64,000 nucleotides of DNA from assembly GCF_001592965.1 (NCBI RefSeq), contig NZ_LRPC01000012.1, positions 1 through 64,000 of the forward strand. Reading direction: 5' to 3'. Of the stretch, positions 3,109-26,369 are shown in pieces (the stretch's first letter is position 1; each line of letters starts with the position of its first letter). The DNA is from Roseivirga spongicola (lineage in GTDB: Bacteria > Bacteroidota > Bacteroidia > Cytophagales > Cyclobacteriaceae). The translations under genes were made by a program, and so were the position numbers. The notes under the pieces are model-generated. The model saw nothing but the letters and a program-made list of their open reading frames with translations. It was not told the DNA's origin and ran no database searches.

Positions 3109-4858
3109 CGATAGGTATGTTTATGTTAAATTCTGCCCCATTGCCAGGAGCGCTCTGAATTTGGAGTTTTCCTCTTAGAATGTCTACCCTAGAGGCAATA
3201 CTCTTCAGGCCTAAGCCTTCCTTAATTTCAGTTTTATCAAAGCCTTTTCCATCATCTTTATATTGAATGGATAGTGTAGAGTTGCTTAGTTTCACTGACA
3301 AGGCTATGGTTTGAGCATGAGCATATTTCATGCTATTGTTAATGAGCTCCTGAATAATGCGATAGATCAGCACTTCTTTTTCTTCATCAATAATGCCTTC
3401 TTCTACTGCAATTTCTTCTTTAACCTTTAGTTGGGTTGAAGCCTTTACATTGTCTAGCAGGTCTAAGATGGCTTCTGCTAGCCCAAGCTTTGTTAAGCTG
3501 GCTGGTACCATGTTGTGCGAAATTCGTCTCACTTCGGTACATGCGTTGTCAATTTGCTCCAATGATTTTCGATAGCCTTCTCGATCTTCTACTTTATCTT
3601 CAAAATTACTGAGCCTCAACTTTACACTTGTCAATAACACCCCGATACCATCATGAAGGTCTTTTGCTACACGCTTGCGTTCTTGTTCTTCGCCCATAAC
3701 CATGGCCTGTAGGTTTTCTAGTTTCTTTTTTTGCAAGGTTTGAATAAAGATGAGGTAAGAAATGAGCAAGGCTATGACCAAGATTATCAGTCCGATACTA
3801 AACAGGCGAGCCTTTCGGCTAGCAAAGAACGCGGTTTGTTCAGCTTGGTCAAGCTGTTTATCTGTTCTGTAATCTTCGGTTATTTGAGCTACTCTGGTTC
3901 GTTCCTTTTCCATCAGAATTCCAATAACTTCAGAATATCTTTGATTACTGTAGGTTAATGCCTTTCTAAAATCTCCCACCAGTTCATAAGCCCTAGAAAG
4001 GCGGGTAAATGTGGTGGCGTAAACCTCATGTTCCATTTTATGTCCTCGACTTTTTTCTAGTCTATCAATTAACTCTACAGACTCTAGCAGAACGGCAATA
4101 GCAGCTGGGCCATTTTCTTGCTGAGTGTAAATACTACCGAGCAATGAATTTACTTGAATGGTGCCTAACGTGTCGCCTGCATTAGTATATAGGTGTTTAG
4201 AGGCTTTTGCATGATATACTGCGGAGTCTAAATAAGTGTCTAGGTTGCCGGGTACTTCGTCTATTAAAAAATTGTAGGCCGATCCGAGCCAAAAATGACA
4301 CTTAGCTATATCTGTTGCTGACCTATTTCCTTCAAGTAGCGTCAATGCCTTTCTGTTGAAGTCTATGCAATCAGCTAGCTTTCCGAACCTGTAGCTATTA
4401 ATGCCTAAGTTGATGTAAGATTTATATAGCTCTTCTTTTAGGTTGTACTCAATTCTGAGATTATAGGCGCTCTGAAAATAGATTTTCGAAGATTCCTTTT
4501 GGCGCATCAGGTCATACACCTCACCTATTTTGTCATTAAGTTCGGCCATTATCAGTGCATTCTCTTCTGTTGCTTTCAATAGCTTGAGGGCTTCGATTAA
4601 GAAGTTAATGGCGCGTTCTCGATTGTTTGAAGTATTGCTCTTTAAATGGGCATCACTGATTAGGCTGAGGTATTTTACTCTTTGGTAAGTACTTGTGCTG
4701 GATGTGTCTATTTTTTGAATGATAATGAAAGTACTATCAGTATCACCATTTGCCAATTGTTGGTTTGCAGCGAAAAATAGTGAGTCGAAAGTATATTCTT
4801 GAGAAGAGGCATTCTTCATTAAGAAGAACGCCAGTAAGATCATAAAGAGTTGCCTCAT
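3101..4858 (-). CDS. TPR-containing sensor histidine kinase (HisKA_3 type)
   Basis: A 585-residue membrane kinase of a type common in Bacteroidota. It has a signal peptide (1-19), a periplasmic array of TPR-like helical repeats (about 30-320), a coiled segment, a membrane helix (about 352-372), a HisKA_3 dimerisation helix with the phosphoacceptor H402 in RVAKDLHDGIG, and an HATPase domain with the N box ELINNSMKYAHA, DDGKGFD and GLGLKSIASRVDILRGKL. It should phosphorylate the NarL-type regulator encoded directly downstream. Two bases separate it from the upstream hypothetical gene, so the three genes probably form one operon. Confidence 0.92.
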   Translation of the reverse strand: MRQLFMILLAFFLMKNASSQEYTFDSLFFAANQQLANGDTDSTFIIIQKIDTSSTSTYQRVKYLSLISDAHLKSNTSNNRERAINFLIEALKLLKATEENALIMAELNDKIGEVYDLMRQKESSKIYFQSAYNLRIEYNLKEELYKSYINLGINSYRFGKLADCIDFNRKALTLLEGNRSATDIAKCHFWLGSAYNFLIDEVPGNLDTYLDSAVYHAKASKHLYTNAGDTLGTIQVNSLLGSIYTQQENGPAAIAVLLESVELIDRLEKSRGHKMEHEVYATTFTRLSRAYELVGDFRKALTYSNQRYSEVIGILMEKERTRVAQITEDYRTDKQLDQAEQTAFFASRKARLFSIGLIILVIALLISYLIFIQTLQKKKLENLQAMVMGEEQERKRVAKDLHDGIGVLLTSVKLRLSNFEDKVEDREGYRKSLEQIDNACTEVRRISHNMVPASLTKLGLAEAILDLLDNVKASTQLKVKEEIAVEEGIIDEEKEVLIYRIIQELINNSMKYAHAQTIALSVKLSNSTLSIQYKDDGKGFDKTEIKEGLGLKSIASRVDILRGKLQIQSAPGNGAEFNINIPIDE

Positions 4859-21818: not shown

Positions 21819-22652
21819 ATGGCTATTACAGCAACAGACGTTAACAAACTAAGACAAATGACCGGTGCCGGTATGATGGATTGTAAAAAGGCATTGGTTG
21901 AAGCAGATGGCGATTTCGATAAAGCCATTGAAATCCTTCGTAAGAAAGGTCAGAAGCTTTCAGAGAAAAGAGCTGACAGAGAGACAAAAGAAGGTAGCGT
22001 GTTTGTAAGAACTAGTGAAGACAAAACTTCTGCTATCATCATTTCATTCACTTGTGAGACTGACTTCGTAGCTAAAAACGATGACTTCCAATCTTTAGGT
22101 AATGAAATTGCTGATGCTGCAATGGCTAACAAACCTGCCGACCTAGCTGCTTTGAACGAGTTGAGCCTTGGCGAACTTACTGTTCAAGCAAAAGTAACTG
22201 AGTACATCGGTAAAATTGGTGAGAAGCTAGCGGTTAATCACTATGAAACTCTTACTTCTGAGCAAGTTGCTTCATACATTCACTCTAACGGTAAATTAGG
22301 TGTTCTTGTGGCATTGACTGGCACAGATGGTAATGATGTTGCTGAAGCTGGTAAAGATGTTGGAATGCAGATCGCTGCTATGAACCCTGTAGCTGTTGAT
22401 AAAGACGGTGTAGACCAAGCAACTATTGAGAAAGAAGTAGAGATCGGTAAAGAGCAAGCGAGAGCTGAAGGTAAGCCAGAGCAAATCATTGAGAAAATTG
22501 CAATGGGTAAGTTGAACAAGTTCTTCCAAGAGAATACTTTGTTGAGCCAGCCTTTCGTAAAAGATTCTAAGCAATCTGTTCAGCAATACTTAGATTCAGT
22601 AAACAAAGGAATGACCGTTACTGAATTCAAAAGAGTAGCTATCGGAGACTAG
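21819..22652 (+). CDS. tsf: Elongation factor Ts
   Basis: A 277-residue guanine-nucleotide exchange factor for EF-Tu. It has the UBA-like start (VNKLRQMTGAGMMDCKKALV), the exchange motif IISFTCETDFVAKNDDFQSL and two core subdomains, ending TEFKRVAIGD. The last 79 bases of the coding sequence are repeated at 25029-25107 with two synonymous differences, and the two copies then diverge (here GGAGACTAG, there GGATAA). The 3' end of this copy may therefore have been supplied by the segment inserted after it. Confidence 0.97.
   Translation: MAITATDVNKLRQMTGAGMMDCKKALVEADGDFDKAIEILRKKGQKLSEKRADRETKEGSVFVRTSEDKTSAIIISFTCETDFVAKNDDFQSLGNEIADAAMANKPADLAALNELSLGELTVQAKVTEYIGKIGEKLAVNHYETLTSEQVASYIHSNGKLGVLVALTGTDGNDVAEAGKDVGMQIAAMNPVAVDKDGVDQATIEKEVEIGKEQARAEGKPEQIIEKIAMGKLNKFFQENTLLSQPFVKDSKQSVQQYLDSVNKGMTVTEFKRVAIGD
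22568..22646 (+). repeat. Left copy of 79-bp direct repeat (3' end of intact tsf)
   Basis: From taagcaatctgttc to gctatcgga, 79 bases. It matches 25029-25107 at all but two positions, both in third codon positions (CAG/CAA and ACC/ACT). The pair brackets the 2.4-kb AT-rich segment with three minus-strand genes, like attachment-site repeats left by integration at a gene's 3' end. Confidence 0.85.
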
Positions 22653-22675
22653 TTTTCTGATTAAATATAGTGCTT

Positions 22676-22710
22676 AAAAAGCAGTCCCGAGTGATCAGGG
22701 CTGCTTTTTT
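22676..22710 (+). terminator. Terminator after tsf
   Basis: aaaaagcag-t-ccc pairs with ggg-ctgcttttt (one bulged base) followed by six T. The A-run on its left could also stop minus-strand transcription from the accessory genes. Confidence 0.85.
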
Positions 22711-22777
22711 GGCTTTCAGGTAATAGCCCTTTATAGCTGGAATCGTTGTGAAGAAAATAAACTAGGGGAATTGGTCT

Positions 22778-23257
22778 CTATCTCAAGTCTTTCAATCTTA
22801 TAGCCAGAGTATCTAGAGCTTGCTCATTGTATGGAGATACTTCTTCTATTTGGACTGCTTTCTTGTCTTTTAAATATACTATGCTAGGATAAATACTTGC
22901 CAAAGTAGAAGAATAAAATATATTATCCGTATCAACAAAAACATTTTCTCGTTCCACCAAATCTCTACCTAATTTTAGTTTTAATCCCTTTATTGAGGAA
23001 ACTGCTGTAAATATAATGTCTAATTGATTTGTTCTGTCAATATTAGTCATTACAAAATTCTCTGAATTAGTTATGCAGCCTTCGCAGCCAGCATTAGGTA
23101 TAATAAGTATAGCCGTCTCTAAATAGAATTCATGATTTAGATTTCCAGATTTGATAATTGAATTAACTTCTTCAAGCTTAGGGTTTGAATTTTTTGAGCA
23201 AGCGATTACGAGTATAGAAATGAATAGGATGATTATCTTTGACTTATTTTTTAACAT
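22778..23257 (-). CDS. Lipoprotein with a CxxC motif, thioredoxin-like fold suspected
   Basis: A 159-residue lipoprotein with a signal peptide and lipobox LVIAC (Cys at residue 20). The mature part has a strand AILIIPNAGCEGCITNSENF with CEGC placed just after a beta strand, as in thioredoxin-like proteins, then a helix, IIFTAVSS, and SIYPSIVYLKDKKAVQIEEV, which fits the strands after the cis-Pro of that fold. It could reduce or oxidise disulfides in an exported partner. It overlaps the upstream propeller-lipoprotein gene by 14 bases, and the candidate partner, the Cys-containing peptide, is encoded first in the cluster. Confidence 0.65.
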   Translation of the reverse strand: MLKNKSKIIILFISILVIACSKNSNPKLEEVNSIIKSGNLNHEFYLETAILIIPNAGCEGCITNSENFVMTNIDRTNQLDIIFTAVSSIKGLKLKLGRDLVERENVFVDTDNIFYSSTLASIYPSIVYLKDKKAVQIEEVSPYNEQALDTLAIRLKDLR

Positions 23258-24389
23258 AGAGATACTTTTTAAAGACTAGGATATCCTCATTATTTTTTTC
23301 GTAAAGGTTATCTTTAAGATATATTCCATCAACAGTTGCAAATGCTTCGTCATTTAACATGATATCTTTTACTTCTCCTATTTTTTGGAACGAAGAATCT
23401 AACAGTATTACACCTGTAAAGGTGTTGTCATTGGACTTGTTTTTCGATTTACGAGGTTGCTGCATATTTGCTTCTACAGAATTTTCTGTAATCTTAAGGC
23501 CGAACGTAATAGTGCGTAGGTATATTTTTTGATATTCATCATATAGGATGTTACGAAACCAGTTGTTACCTACTTGATATTTATAATTATTGAAATCAGT
23601 GAAAGATCCCTTGAATTTCGGGGGGGCTTCAGCATTATTAGAACCAGCATAATATTTTTTGATTTCATTGGTCTTAAGATCAATAACACTAATGTGACTA
23701 TCAAAGGGGACAGAGCTTACATATTTGTTTTCATGCTTATTTAATGTGCCGAATATTGTTTCATTTTTACCTAAGTATTCTTTGAAGTCATCTTCCCATT
23801 TCATAAGTAGACGTTTTTCTTTTGTACGAAGGTTGTATTCGAGTAATGGTTTATTGTTGTTTTTCGTTGTAAAATTATTATTTCTTACTGGAATATAGAT
23901 TGAATTAGTTAATTCATTATAGTTAAAAGAGTTGCTGAAAGTCTGTATTGAAGGATCTGAGTCGTCATAAGACAATAGAAGTTGACTTCTGACAACTTGA
24001 CCATTGTTGGTAATGACATGAAGTTTATTGGTCAATCTACTAAAAGTGATTATTGAATCTATTCCATCAGTAGTCAGTCTGCTTACCTGCCCAATTCCCG
24101 TAGGACCTTCCTTAAAAAGTTTTATGGTTTTTAACTTAGTTCCATTTGCTAATGAAAAGAAATGGAGTTCATATTTGTAATCATCGAATACATAAATGCT
24201 ATTGGATTTTTTGTCATATCCCACTTTGCTACCGAATCTCTTGGTCGTTGTGTTCAAAGGAAATATTATTCGTTCTTTTAACTCTAAAGTGAGTTTATCT
24301 TCAAAAATCACATCTTCTGGTCTTGAGTTGCATCCAGGTAATAAAATATATAAAATTAAAAGGAGGTAGGTGTTGAGTTTATTAGACAT
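23244..24389 (-). CDS. 6-bladed beta-propeller-like lipoprotein (DUF4221/BF3164-like)
   Basis: A 381-residue lipoprotein (signal peptide, lipobox LLPGC with Cys near 19). The body is made of repeated beta strands with motifs such as GYDKKSNSIYVFDDYKYELH, FSLANGTKLKTIKLFKEGPT and YNYNELTNSIYIPV-like blades, which resemble the TolB-like six-bladed propellers (DUF4221, BF3164) of Bacteroidota. In other genomes such proteins often neighbour short exported peptides. Base composition is clearly AT-richer than the ribosomal genes next door, consistent with acquisition. Confidence 0.65.
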   Translation of the reverse strand: MSNKLNTYLLLILYILLPGCNSRPEDVIFEDKLTLELKERIIFPLNTTTKRFGSKVGYDKKSNSIYVFDDYKYELHFFSLANGTKLKTIKLFKEGPTGIGQVSRLTTDGIDSIITFSRLTNKLHVITNNGQVVRSQLLLSYDDSDPSIQTFSNSFNYNELTNSIYIPVRNNNFTTKNNNKPLLEYNLRTKEKRLLMKWEDDFKEYLGKNETIFGTLNKHENKYVSSVPFDSHISVIDLKTNEIKKYYAGSNNAEAPPKFKGSFTDFNNYKYQVGNNWFRNILYDEYQKIYLRTITFGLKITENSVEANMQQPRKSKNKSNDNTFTGVILLDSSFQKIGEVKDIMLNDEAFATVDGIYLKDNLYEKNNEDILVFKKYLYVKK

Positions 24390-24453
24390 TATGACTGATT
24401 TTGTGAATTATAAGGTCAGGTACTATAGATTTATAATACCTGACTAATAATAT

Positions 24454-24687
24454 TTACTCTGCTTTACGCGGCATCTTGCATTCTCTTGCCGTAGGATCTA
24501 GGGTTCCTTCCTCTTGGCATTTCAAAGATAGCAAGGTTTCACCTTCTTCGTTGGTAGAATAGTCCTTAACGCACCAGTCCTTTGTACCCTCTTTTAAAGT
24601 GCAGGTAGCGTTTGAAATCATAGGTGTAAGTACTCCGCACAACATTAGAACGATTGCCATTGATATCGCTTTGATTCTCTTTTTCAC
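24454..24687 (-). CDS. Short exported peptide with four mature-region cysteines
   Basis: A 77-residue protein with a signal peptide (about 1-27, ending ISNA) and a mature part of about 50 residues carrying four Cys (TCTLKEG, DWCVKD, LKCQEE, RECKMP). The even number and spacing suggest two disulfides. It is the first gene of a minus-strand group with a beta-propeller-like lipoprotein and a CxxC lipoprotein. The layout resembles NVEALA-type peptide loci of Bacteroidota, but the NVEALA motif itself is absent. Function unknown. Confidence 0.6.
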   Translation of the reverse strand: MKKRIKAISMAIVLMLCGVLTPMISNATCTLKEGTKDWCVKDYSTNEEGETLLSLKCQEEGTLDPTARECKMPRKAE

Positions 24688-25028
24688 GTTTTGAATAATT
24701 ATTAGTTAACCTACTCACTTTTGTTCAGGCATTTTCGGCATCCTCCTGTTTTTTTGAGCGGCAATACAAAGGCAGTTGTATACAGGACTGAGAGATGTAT
24801 TGTGTGTGCTCATTCTTCGTTTTGCTTAGCAGCCAGATGAAGTTCTTTTTCTTAAGAATAGTATGAAGTAAGTTATCGAAAACATAAAAGTCAATAAAAA
24901 AGTAAAAAACATAATAAAATTAATTCAATGATATTTGAATGCCTAGAAATGGTAGTAAGAAGTGAACTGCTCTGTTAGTTACTAAACATGATTTATTTGG
25001 GGGGTAGATGTTGAGTTTTAAAAACAGG
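24688..25028. other. AT-rich non-coding stretch upstream of the small peptide gene
   Basis: 341 bases with no supported gene on either strand. It should contain the promoter of the minus-strand peptide-propeller-CxxC group, but I find no full TAnnTTTG match. It ends at the right-hand tsf repeat. The very high AT content supports a foreign origin. Confidence 0.5.
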
Positions 25029-25110
25029 TAAGCAATCTGTTCAACAATACTTAGATTCAGTAAACAAAGGAATGACTGTTACTGAATTCAAAAGAGTAGC
25101 TATCGGATAA
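25029..25110 (+). pseudogene. Remnant of the 3' end of tsf (right copy of the direct repeat)
   Basis: This stretch encodes the last 26 or so residues of EF-Ts (ending EFKRVAIG) followed by TAA at 25108-25110, with no start. It is 77/79 identical to the end of the intact tsf, and both differences are synonymous. It is followed within 80 bases by a strong terminator, so it may be the original 3' end and terminator of tsf, displaced when the 2.4-kb segment was inserted. Confidence 0.8.
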
Positions 25111-25162
25111 TTTTATCCTTCAAGCCCATCAGGCCAAAGGTCAGATGGTATAAAATCAAAAA

Positions 25163-25190
25163 AAAAGCGACTTCGCAAGAGGTCGCTTTT
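25163..25190. terminator. Bidirectional terminator, possibly the ancestral tsf terminator
   Basis: aaaagcgac (25163-25171) pairs with gtcgctttt (25182-25190), with an A-run before it and a T-run after it. It serves the minus-strand metallohydrolase gene ending at 25217 and would also suit the tsf remnant. Confidence 0.85.
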
Positions 25191-25216
25191 TTTGTCTGCT
25201 AGAATTAATACTGATC

Positions 25217-26194
25217 TTACTTTTCCTGGAATCCGAAGATTTGCCCTTGCTGCGCCACATTGAAACCAGCCTGGCTTACTTCTTCATATTCTGGACTATT
25301 CATGTCCAGAATAGGGTTGGTATGATTGGCATGAATAAAATGAACCTTGGCTTTATCTGTTTTTGATAGCTCACTAAAGAGTTCCATACTTTCTTTAGTG
25401 AAAGGATGAGGAATAAGACTCATATCTCTGCCTTCTAGTTCACCGTCTTGGTAGAAGCTGGCATCAATGAGGATGATGTCATTGTTTTTAACTACTTCTC
25501 TAATGTCCACGTCCCACTTATTCCATTTGTCAATATCTGGGATGAAAACAACGGACTTTTGGTTGATCTGAATTTTGAACCCGACAGTTTCACTATACTC
25601 ATCTCTGTGTGGAACAGTAAAGGGCATAACGGAAATATCTTTAGAAAGCTCAACCAAAGTTGAGTCTTGCATGGGTTTAATGCTGATATTATTCAGGCTT
25701 ACTAATTGATTCCATGGGCCATTTTCTTCCAAGAAAGTCTTCATTTTAGGCATGGCGTGTACAGGAACGCCTGCAGTTCCCATCACTTCTCTGCCCAAAT
25801 GCATGAGGCCGGTGTAATGACCAATATGGGCATGAGTAAGAAATATGCCGTCTAATGGATAGTCATTCGTTTCTGAGATTTCATCTAGCATTTGTAGCTG
25901 TTCTTTGAAATCTGGTGTAGCATCGAACAAGTATCGCTTTTTATTGATTGGGTCTATTAGGCCTAAAGATACCGTGTACAGTGGTTTTCTCTGTCCTAAA
26001 TTTATGGCTTTCCATTCTTCTTGATAGCCAGCTTGTGGATAGCCAGCGTCTTGTGCTACACCCAATACCATAATAAAGGGAGTTTTCGGGGCAGTGTTTT
26101 CTACTTGACTTACCTCGGAGCAGCCTAAAAAAATGAATAAAAAAAGAGCCATAAGAGGCTCTAGTTTTTTTGTTGAAGATGATGCTGTTGTCAT
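25217..26194 (-). CDS. PqqB-like metallo-beta-lactamase-fold lipoprotein
   Basis: A 325-residue lipoprotein. ATG 26194 was chosen because it lies one base after the stop of the upstream small ORF (TAATATG), and it gives a lipobox FLGC with Cys24. The metallo-beta-lactamase fold is shown by GIFLTHAHIGHYTGL (H121, H123, H126), VPHRDEYSETVGF, IPDIDKWN and IHANHTNP. The usual HxHxDH metal motif reads HAHIGH, so the Asp is replaced by Gly, as in PqqB-related proteins with altered metal sites. The opening GVAQDAGYPQAG is also PqqB-like. The substrate is unknown; the preceding peptide gene is a candidate partner. Confidence 0.85.
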   Translation of the reverse strand: MTTASSSTKKLEPLMALFLFIFLGCSEVSQVENTAPKTPFIMVLGVAQDAGYPQAGYQEEWKAINLGQRKPLYTVSLGLIDPINKKRYLFDATPDFKEQLQMLDEISETNDYPLDGIFLTHAHIGHYTGLMHLGREVMGTAGVPVHAMPKMKTFLEENGPWNQLVSLNNISIKPMQDSTLVELSKDISVMPFTVPHRDEYSETVGFKIQINQKSVVFIPDIDKWNKWDVDIREVVKNNDIILIDASFYQDGELEGRDMSLIPHPFTKESMELFSELSKTDKAKVHFIHANHTNPILDMNSPEYEEVSQAGFNVAQQGQIFGFQEK

Positions 26195-26195
26195 A

Positions 26196-26369
26196 TTAGC
26201 TACCACAACCTACACAATCAAAATGAGAATCCATAGGTTTAACACCATTCAATTTCATTTTAAGGTTGTGAATTTGGTCTTTAATGTCCATATCATTGAA
26301 CATGTCTCCAGTAAGCTGAGAAGATAGTTCATCTATCTGCTTTTGTAATTGTTCTGCAGTTTGTTCCAT
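26196..26369 (-). CDS. 57-residue protein ending in DCVGCGS, coupled to the metallohydrolase
   Basis: A short ORF read directly from the minus strand: ATG at 26369, TAA at 26196. It begins MEQTAEQLQKQIDELSSQL, a helical, probably coiled-coil segment, continues with DIKDQIHNLKMKL and ends HFDCVGCGS. There is no signal peptide. The stop and the metallohydrolase ATG are one base apart, so the two are translationally coupled. The C-terminal CxxCG could bind a metal or be a modification site. A RiPP-like precursor, a metal-binding adaptor or a redox peptide are all possible. None is shown. Confidence 0.7.
   Translation of the reverse strand: MEQTAEQLQKQIDELSSQLTGDMFNDMDIKDQIHNLKMKLNGVKPMDSHFDCVGCGS

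Follow-up and report, generated by a model that had tools for sequence, protein, structure and literature searches.

A second 3′ end of tsf beyond an AT-rich three-gene segment in Roseivirga spongicola may record one-sided recombination

Introduction

How does an essential housekeeping gene come to have two 3′ ends with unrelated genes lying between them? This question is raised by tsf, the gene for elongation factor Ts (EF-Ts), in the Bacteroidota species Roseivirga spongicola, on contig NZ_LRPC01000012.1 of the draft assembly GCF_001592965.1 (33 contigs). We analyzed positions 1 to 64,000 of the forward strand of this contig (hereafter the window), in which an initial annotation had drawn attention to a segment bounded by a duplicated tsf end. 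The right-hand end carries the flank that follows tsf in close relatives, and we put at roughly two in three the probability that the segment is chromosomal DNA of a relative, acquired by homologous recombination in tsf, with the opposite side joined abnormally.

Results

The tsf repeat and the DNA that it encloses

The final 79 bases of the tsf coding sequence occur twice in the window, with a spacing of 2461 bases and 77 of the 79 positions identical (Table 1). At the settings used, this pair is the sole direct repeat of at least 45 nt in the 64 kb. The left copy closes an intact tsf of 277 codons, which gains one extra codon (GAC) before a TAG stop, whereas the right copy runs into a TAA at 25108-25110. 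The two copies differ at 22583 (G/A) and 22616 (C/T), and both differences are synonymous. At the first site the left copy matches G015, a congener, and at the second the right copy does so, which agrees with a single crossover between these positions but, at two sites only, is too little to count. A further repeat (D8, 24362-24380 and 25000-25018, 17/19 matching) was treated as chance. The DNA between the copies is single-copy in its genome and carries three genes on the minus strand; its GC content is 0.328 as against 0.406 in tsf and 0.414 downstream. Thus, the initial annotation, which described a tsf end recurring with two synonymous changes around AT-rich DNA with three minus-strand genes, and which suggested computing the composition of the region, described the segment accurately. 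It had also noted the lack of an integrase; none of the three open reading frames (ORFs) of the insert was recognized as a recombinase in Pfam or NCBIfam, and the repeat search of the window returned no terminal inverted repeat on the insert.

The presence of a short repeat at both joins of a draft genome could suggest that assembly had merged two separate stretches via the 79 nt. We regard this artefact as the least credible of the explanations considered: both flanks lie within one contig of 675,902 bp, five other genomes display a similar layout (see below) and a repeat of 79 nt is shorter than usual sequencing reads.

Which tsf end is ancestral

The two congeners closest by tsf protein identity are G015 (94%) and G016 (90%). 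In both, tsf is followed by a TAA, a terminator with a similar stem and then a relative of the MBL-fold hydrolase gene that lies to the right of the insert, at a distance of 340 bp (G015) and 278 bp (G016) from tsf, i.e., the empty site. The alignment scores of the right flank with three congeners (Table 1) exceed the maximum of 37 reached by 300 shuffled queries. Behind tsf, the hydrolase gene has a relative in 12 congeners; it was not found in the retrieved stretch of six others. The left copy is followed by a stop and a hairpin with runs of T on both sides, which are unlike the flanks of the two closest relatives and possibly terminate transcription in both directions, that of tsf and that of the minus-strand genes. 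Because the right flank aligns with congeners and the left flank does not clearly do so, the right tail is the displaced original end of tsf, and the left end most likely arrived with the insert. This agrees with the suggestion of the initial annotation that the right-hand stop and terminator could be the ancestral end, and the empty sites that it proposed to look for in related genomes are found in G015 and G016.

Table 1. Features of the tsf region in the window
Feature	Coordinates	Strand	Basis
tsf (EF-Ts, 277 amino acids), intact, new 3′ end GAC TAG vs TAA at right copy	21819..22652	+	ORF list; 94% protein identity to G015
Left copy of 79-nt tsf tail	22568..22646	+	Repeat search
Inserted unique DNA, 2382 bases, GC 0.328	22647..25028	.	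Composition and copy-number searches
Stop and hairpin, T runs on both sides	22650..22715	+	Inverted repeat I13, 22676-22709
Lipoprotein, 159 amino acids, CxxC motif, overlaps end of propeller gene	22778..23257	-	ORF list; aligned with five neighbors downstream of DUF4221 genes, 18-35% identity
DUF4221 propeller-type lipoprotein, 381 amino acids	23244..24389	-	hhalign with nine relatives, 99.8% across 351 columns
Hairpin, 13 pairs, between peptide and propeller genes	24415..24444	-	Terminator-like sites: 2 found vs 1.2 expected in shuffles; weak
Peptide, 77 amino acids, signal-like start, five cysteines (four after that stretch), first cassette gene, GTG start as listed	24454..24687	-	ORF list
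Right copy, displaced old 3′ end of tsf	25029..25107	+	Repeat search; native flank
Ancestral tsf stop (TAA) and terminator	25108..25195	+	Alignment: G015 score 100, G012 89, G016 66
MBL-fold hydrolase (PqqB-like), native neighbor	25217..26206	-	PF12706 4.4e-23; behind tsf in 12 congeners, 53-81% identity

Among the congeners, a search with tblastn found none of the three insert proteins behind tsf in 18 genomes, in three of which (G011, G015 and G017) the locus is cut by a contig end, and a second tsf tail was seen in none of the 17 that have a tsf tail (E 1e-5). Hence, the state that the initial annotation had named as speaking for an old duplication, with the same genes and both tsf ends in all relatives, is not what these genomes display. 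An old tandem duplication of the whole tsf gene, most of the second copy of which was then lost while genes were inserted in between, has a possible counterpart in G103, where two adjacent, full-length and diverged tsf genes are present. For the window it is nevertheless very improbable, given the missing second tail in the congeners, the high similarity of the two copies and the native flank of the close congeners G015 and G016, which bear no trace of a second copy.

Stranded tsf tails elsewhere in the family

We searched 344 genomes of the family with a 30-column profile of the tsf C-terminus at a threshold of 1e-5. The profile matched 330 of them, and seven showed two matches: the window genome, five genomes with truncated tails (G320, G077, G240, G297 and G148) and G103 with its two full tsf genes. 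The five tail genomes come from three other genera and feature an intact tsf, AT-richer DNA and a truncated tail 0.5-2.4 kb further on. Comparison of the last 200 nt of each tsf with its own downstream DNA gave matches of 200 nt at 87.5% identity in G320, 200 nt at 89.5% in G077, 135 nt at 97.8% in G148, 142 nt at 74.6% in G240 and 54 nt at 90.7% in G297, with 79 nt at 97.5% in the window. With a 303-nt query (blastn), the tails of G320 and G077 reach 286 and 296 nt; the others span 142-147 nt (G240), 54-57 nt (G297) and 135-145 nt (G148). Both the length of the tail and the content between the tails vary by genome; if the events in the other genomes are of the same kind, there is no constant core. 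All six tails fall within the last ~100 of the 276 codons of tsf; long direct repeats may simply vanish through recombination.

Outside the family, no second tsf tail was found among 80 named tsf loci from other Bacteroidota, in one of which (L216) a 26-nt self-match (E 0.001) was taken as chance. Of 390 genomes sampled across the order, 349 matched at 1e-4; two matches were seen only in G000, G240, G297 and G320, all from this family. In G103 (L104, C7:599000-605000), the two full-length tsf genes lie in tandem with ends at ~1970 and ~2883 and ~86 bp between them; a second EF-Ts gene is unusual. Simple tandem duplication was retained as the explanation only for G148 and, as the whole-gene case, for G103.

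The DNA between the tails connects tsf loci of different genera. Nucleotides 121-833 after the left tail of G320 recur behind tsf at 80-84% nucleotide identity in three other genera (at 180-892 after the tsf stop in G071, 187-722 in G139 and 1141-1868 in G052), and the tsf loci of several genera therefore have cargo in common. By eye, this shared cargo looks like a HigBA toxin-antitoxin pair (L099 ~2190-2900, with matches in L136, L134 and L139). A PIN-domain-like toxin with a small antitoxin-like partner, likewise recognized by eye, stands directly after the displaced tsf tail of G297 (L103, 2826-3418, reverse-complement). In G240, tsf is followed by a first cargo, then by a pgk tail next to a tsf tail, by a different cargo and finally by pgk: a 3′ fragment of pgk (2942-3127 of L102; ~150-190 bp of tail) abuts the 3′ fragment of tsf (3129-3275) head to head, and the full pgk follows further on. 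This layout is expected of a fragment that reached from tsf to pgk and whose joining took place either end to end or with tsf.

These comparisons bear on a further explanation. Integrative elements insert at the 3′ ends of tRNA genes and some protein genes, where they rebuild the gene on one side and leave the ancestral end, as part of a direct repeat, on the other. The window insert might likewise be a non-autonomous element that uses the tsf 3′ end as its attachment site and an integrase supplied in trans, with the 79-nt repeats as attL and attR and tsf rebuilt. The geometry fits, with a whole gene on the left, the ancestral end on the right, a near-identical short repeat and an empty site in relatives, as does the confinement of all six family tails to the end of the gene. 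However, no integrase was recognized in the window insert or, by eye only, among the between-tail ORFs of the five other genomes; the tails measure 54 to ~296 nt and are 75-98% identical; the content differs from case to case; and the G240 insert ends in a piece of pgk, a downstream chromosomal gene. Given the lack of a recognized recombinase and the varying tails, we set the site-specific element aside as the primary explanation and consider it unlikely. Of the earlier proposal of an integration at the gene's 3′ end that rebuilds tsf, the insertion at this place stands, in light of the native right flank and the slots of relatives, whereas a defined mobile element that attaches at the end of a gene is disfavored by the missing recombinase and terminal inverted repeat and by the variation in tail length and content.

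Divergence between the tails

We next compared the codons that differ between the two tails, pooling the window, G320 and G077 and leaving out G240, G297 and the tandem duplication in G148. The differing codons comprise 46 synonymous and 12 nonsynonymous ones (79% synonymous), while random change of the same sequences yields a mean of 21.5% and a maximum of 42% synonymous in 5000 simulations; functional ortholog pairs give synonymous to nonsynonymous ratios of 23:5, 23:5 and 22:10. Because the differences are mostly synonymous, the tails of G320 and G077 had, by their codon signature, belonged to functioning tsf genes of separate lineages and had diverged as such before they were joined, which is at odds with a duplicated copy in decay. 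This excess, provided that the events are of the same kind, speaks against an intragenomic duplication, in which either tandem duplication or the filling-in of a staggered break would have copied the 79 bp while ectopic DNA was captured with no relative's tsf locus involved. So do the differing cargo on the two sides in G240 and the lack of another copy of the insert in the window genome. The window tails themselves, being 97% identical with one apparent change each, would suit such an origin, and G148 offers a clear case of tandem duplication, with filler; on balance, we judge it improbable for the window.

A proposed route for the window insert

The reading that we favor, acquisition of a relative's DNA through tsf, would involve the following steps, of which we infer the crossover, the donor and the joining. 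First, incoming DNA of a relative, comprising a tsf 3′ end and the genes downstream of it (those for the peptide, the DUF4221 lipoprotein and the CxxC lipoprotein), would pair with the resident tsf. Second, a homologous crossover in the last part of tsf would provide the resident gene with a new 3′ end, a terminator and the cargo. Third, the far end of the incoming DNA would form an abnormal junction within tsf. Either the fragment would have become circular beforehand and entered through a single crossover, or the junction would result from homology-facilitated illegitimate recombination. This would shift the former last 79 coding bases, together with their stop and terminator, 2.4 kb downstream, with tsf staying whole throughout.

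Is tsf special among core genes

As a control, the tails of enolase were scanned in the same 344 genomes. They gave 332 matches and seven second matches, each on another contig, of which six fall in open frames of at least 436 amino acids and one in a frame of 215 amino acids; an adjacent truncated tail was found in 0/332. Against this, the 6/330 of tsf amounts to a Fisher p of 0.015. Relative to the other families of the order (0/275 by hand count, with a tsf profile that is less sensitive outside the family), the value is p 0.034, changing to 0.066 with 5/329 and to 0.130 with 4/329. A second control, the pgk tail, matched 324 of 330 genomes with at least two matches in six: the second match of G240 is the scar itself, G284 and G161 show no second copy in the retrieved stretch, and G007, G111 and G245 were not settled. 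These controls are modest and were partly chosen after the fact; the excess for tsf is likewise modest and suggestive only.

Several observations weigh against the acquisition from a relative or narrow its support. First, the best scores of the left flank, 40 with G003 and 39 with G225, barely exceed the shuffled maximum of 37, and the likeness to the congener G003 was set aside as too weak for use. Second, we found no donor locus: the plasmids contain no DNA relative of the insert, and genome_contigs and viral_contigs no close protein relative, the genome collections consisting of draft assemblies with one genome per species; within the family, the propeller shares no more than 20-31% identity with its relatives. 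Third, the window tails are 97% identical and both of their differences are synonymous, which is not significant (p 0.06). Fourth, nonsynonymous change is more prominent in two genomes outside the pooled count: the tails of G240 differ at 41 sites in 147 nt, with 12 nonsynonymous codons and 20 synonymous nucleotides, and those of G297 at 7 in 57 nt, with three of each. The pgk tail of G240 is 95% identical to the resident pgk; with tsf tails so unlike, no single simple event therefore accounts for this genome, and either a later exchange took place there or the reading is incomplete. Fifth, no similarity switch that would mark a crossover point was detected along the tails of G320, G077, G240 and G297 (p 0.26-0.99), so mosaic analysis does not distinguish the integration of a circle from one-sided joining. 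Sixth, G148 is a plain tandem duplication with filler and not an acquisition. Finally, the excess over enolase shrinks to 5/329 (p 0.030) when the window genome is left out and to 4/329 (p 0.061) when G148 is left out as well. As for other origins, a phage or plasmid source was rejected, with no plasmid match, a single phage record at 23% identity and no viral contig.

The slot behind tsf

Both tsf and the hydrolase gene lie within the retrieved stretch in 12 of the 18 congeners, where the interval between them spans 57-6684 bp and is greater than 900 bp in eight. A gene for a putative small mechanosensitive channel of 274-285 amino acids is common to the slot of seven congeners. The slot of G013 holds genes for a propeller lipoprotein (PF17170, 2.3e-36) and a 96-residue peptide (L034 4909-6401), a similar type of cargo drawn from another protein family. 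In G113, from another genus, genes for a 72-residue peptide and a DUF4221 protein lie ~143 and ~368 bases after the tsf stop, and no stranded tail is seen. We also considered DUF4221 as a habitual passenger of the slot and rejected it: when 65 tsf loci (median ~7 kb downstream) were searched with a DUF4221 profile, only the copy in the window was retrieved, G113 lying outside this set. The contig of locus L049 (G011:C9) ends 97 bp past tsf, and these last 97 bases resemble an insertion-sequence end.

The cargo genes

The first gene of the insert codes for the 77-residue peptide, which matches no Pfam or NCBIfam family above the cut-off and whose position corresponds to that of the peptides in related cassettes. 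The hairpin that separates it from the propeller gene could permit production of the peptide in excess. The 381-residue propeller protein on its own has no Pfam match up to E 1. Among four related propellers that were scanned, three match PF13970 (DUF4221) and one PF17170, and a profile that includes the window protein recovers the structure PDB 3s9j ('Member of DUF4221 family') with E 9.7e-64. Invariant among the 10 aligned sequences are C20 (the lipobox cysteine), G95, P96, D284, R292 and E368. A single-sequence structure prediction of the propeller was useless, with a mean predicted local distance difference test (pLDDT) score of 31. The third protein, of 159 residues, has no Pfam family. 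By eye, four of 29 loci of relatives (L058, L064, L068 and L069) show the same succession of a cysteine-bearing small peptide, a DUF4221 gene and a CxxC lipoprotein with an overlap of a few bases, as in the window, and several others keep two of the three genes. The set might thus form an envelope cassette whose two lipoproteins bind or process the peptide. A Bacteroidota-type promoter consensus pattern matches the window four times against 3.2 expected, and none of these matches lies upstream of the cassette. While the 381-residue protein aligns with the DUF4221 family (PF13970; PDB 3s9j), the three-gene setting adds the small peptide and the CxxC lipoprotein. The literature searched, which leaves most subscription journals outside its coverage, contained no text naming DUF4221 or NVEALA.

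Discussion

Many hotspots of bacterial gene content lack integrases, and exchange via the flanking core genes is mostly deduced from core-gene statistics (PMC5635113). A stranded gene tail would mark a single event directly and physically, with an orientation and breakpoints. Such tails can be counted in any genome and could make the entry of cargo into integrase-free hotspots directly testable. One could tentatively go further, though we rate this generalization as rather less probable than not: the tsf 3′ end would be a preferred site of integrase-free gene acquisition in this Bacteroidota family, at which envelope-peptide cassettes and toxin-antitoxin-like pairs cross genera on pieces of tsf, each abnormal entry leaving an orientated scar. 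If true, essential housekeeping genes would give cargo a handle, and one-sided recombination in wild genomes could be read from the scars that gene tails form. We found no literature on elongation factor Ts or tsf as an integration site, most subscription journals being outside the coverage.

How does this compare with known systems? The tsf cases differ from integrative elements at gene ends in having no recognized integrase, no constant core and a different content each time. Natural transformation can create merodiploids, in which the uptake of partly repeated DNA makes tandem duplications of ~100 to 900 kb (PMC3784515); the uptake of partly repeated DNA is common to both, but here a gene tail with cargo results in place of such a duplication. 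The integrase-free hotspots described in PMC5635113, for which the model published there is double recombination at the flanks, share with the tsf locus variable cargo between conserved genes, the lack of an integrase and exchange via a flanking core gene; at tsf, unlike in these, one of the two sides is abnormal, with a scar that can be counted. A close parallel can be drawn with type VI secretion system (T6SS) effector, Rhs and contact-dependent inhibition (CDI) loci, where, as described in PMC5361080 (citing Jackson 2009 and Poole 2011), homology-facilitated illegitimate recombination brings about 'C-terminal displacement' and orphan 3′ regions. As in those loci, the conserved part serves as the anchor, a new 3′ end arrives with new genes and the old 3′ part is pushed downstream; unlike in them, an essential housekeeping gene provides the anchor and stays whole, only its tail is displaced and the cargo is unrelated to it. 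Thus, in our judgement, the process resembles a known kind, and what is new is the setting: a housekeeping gene that is essential, cargo unrelated to it and occurrence in several genera.

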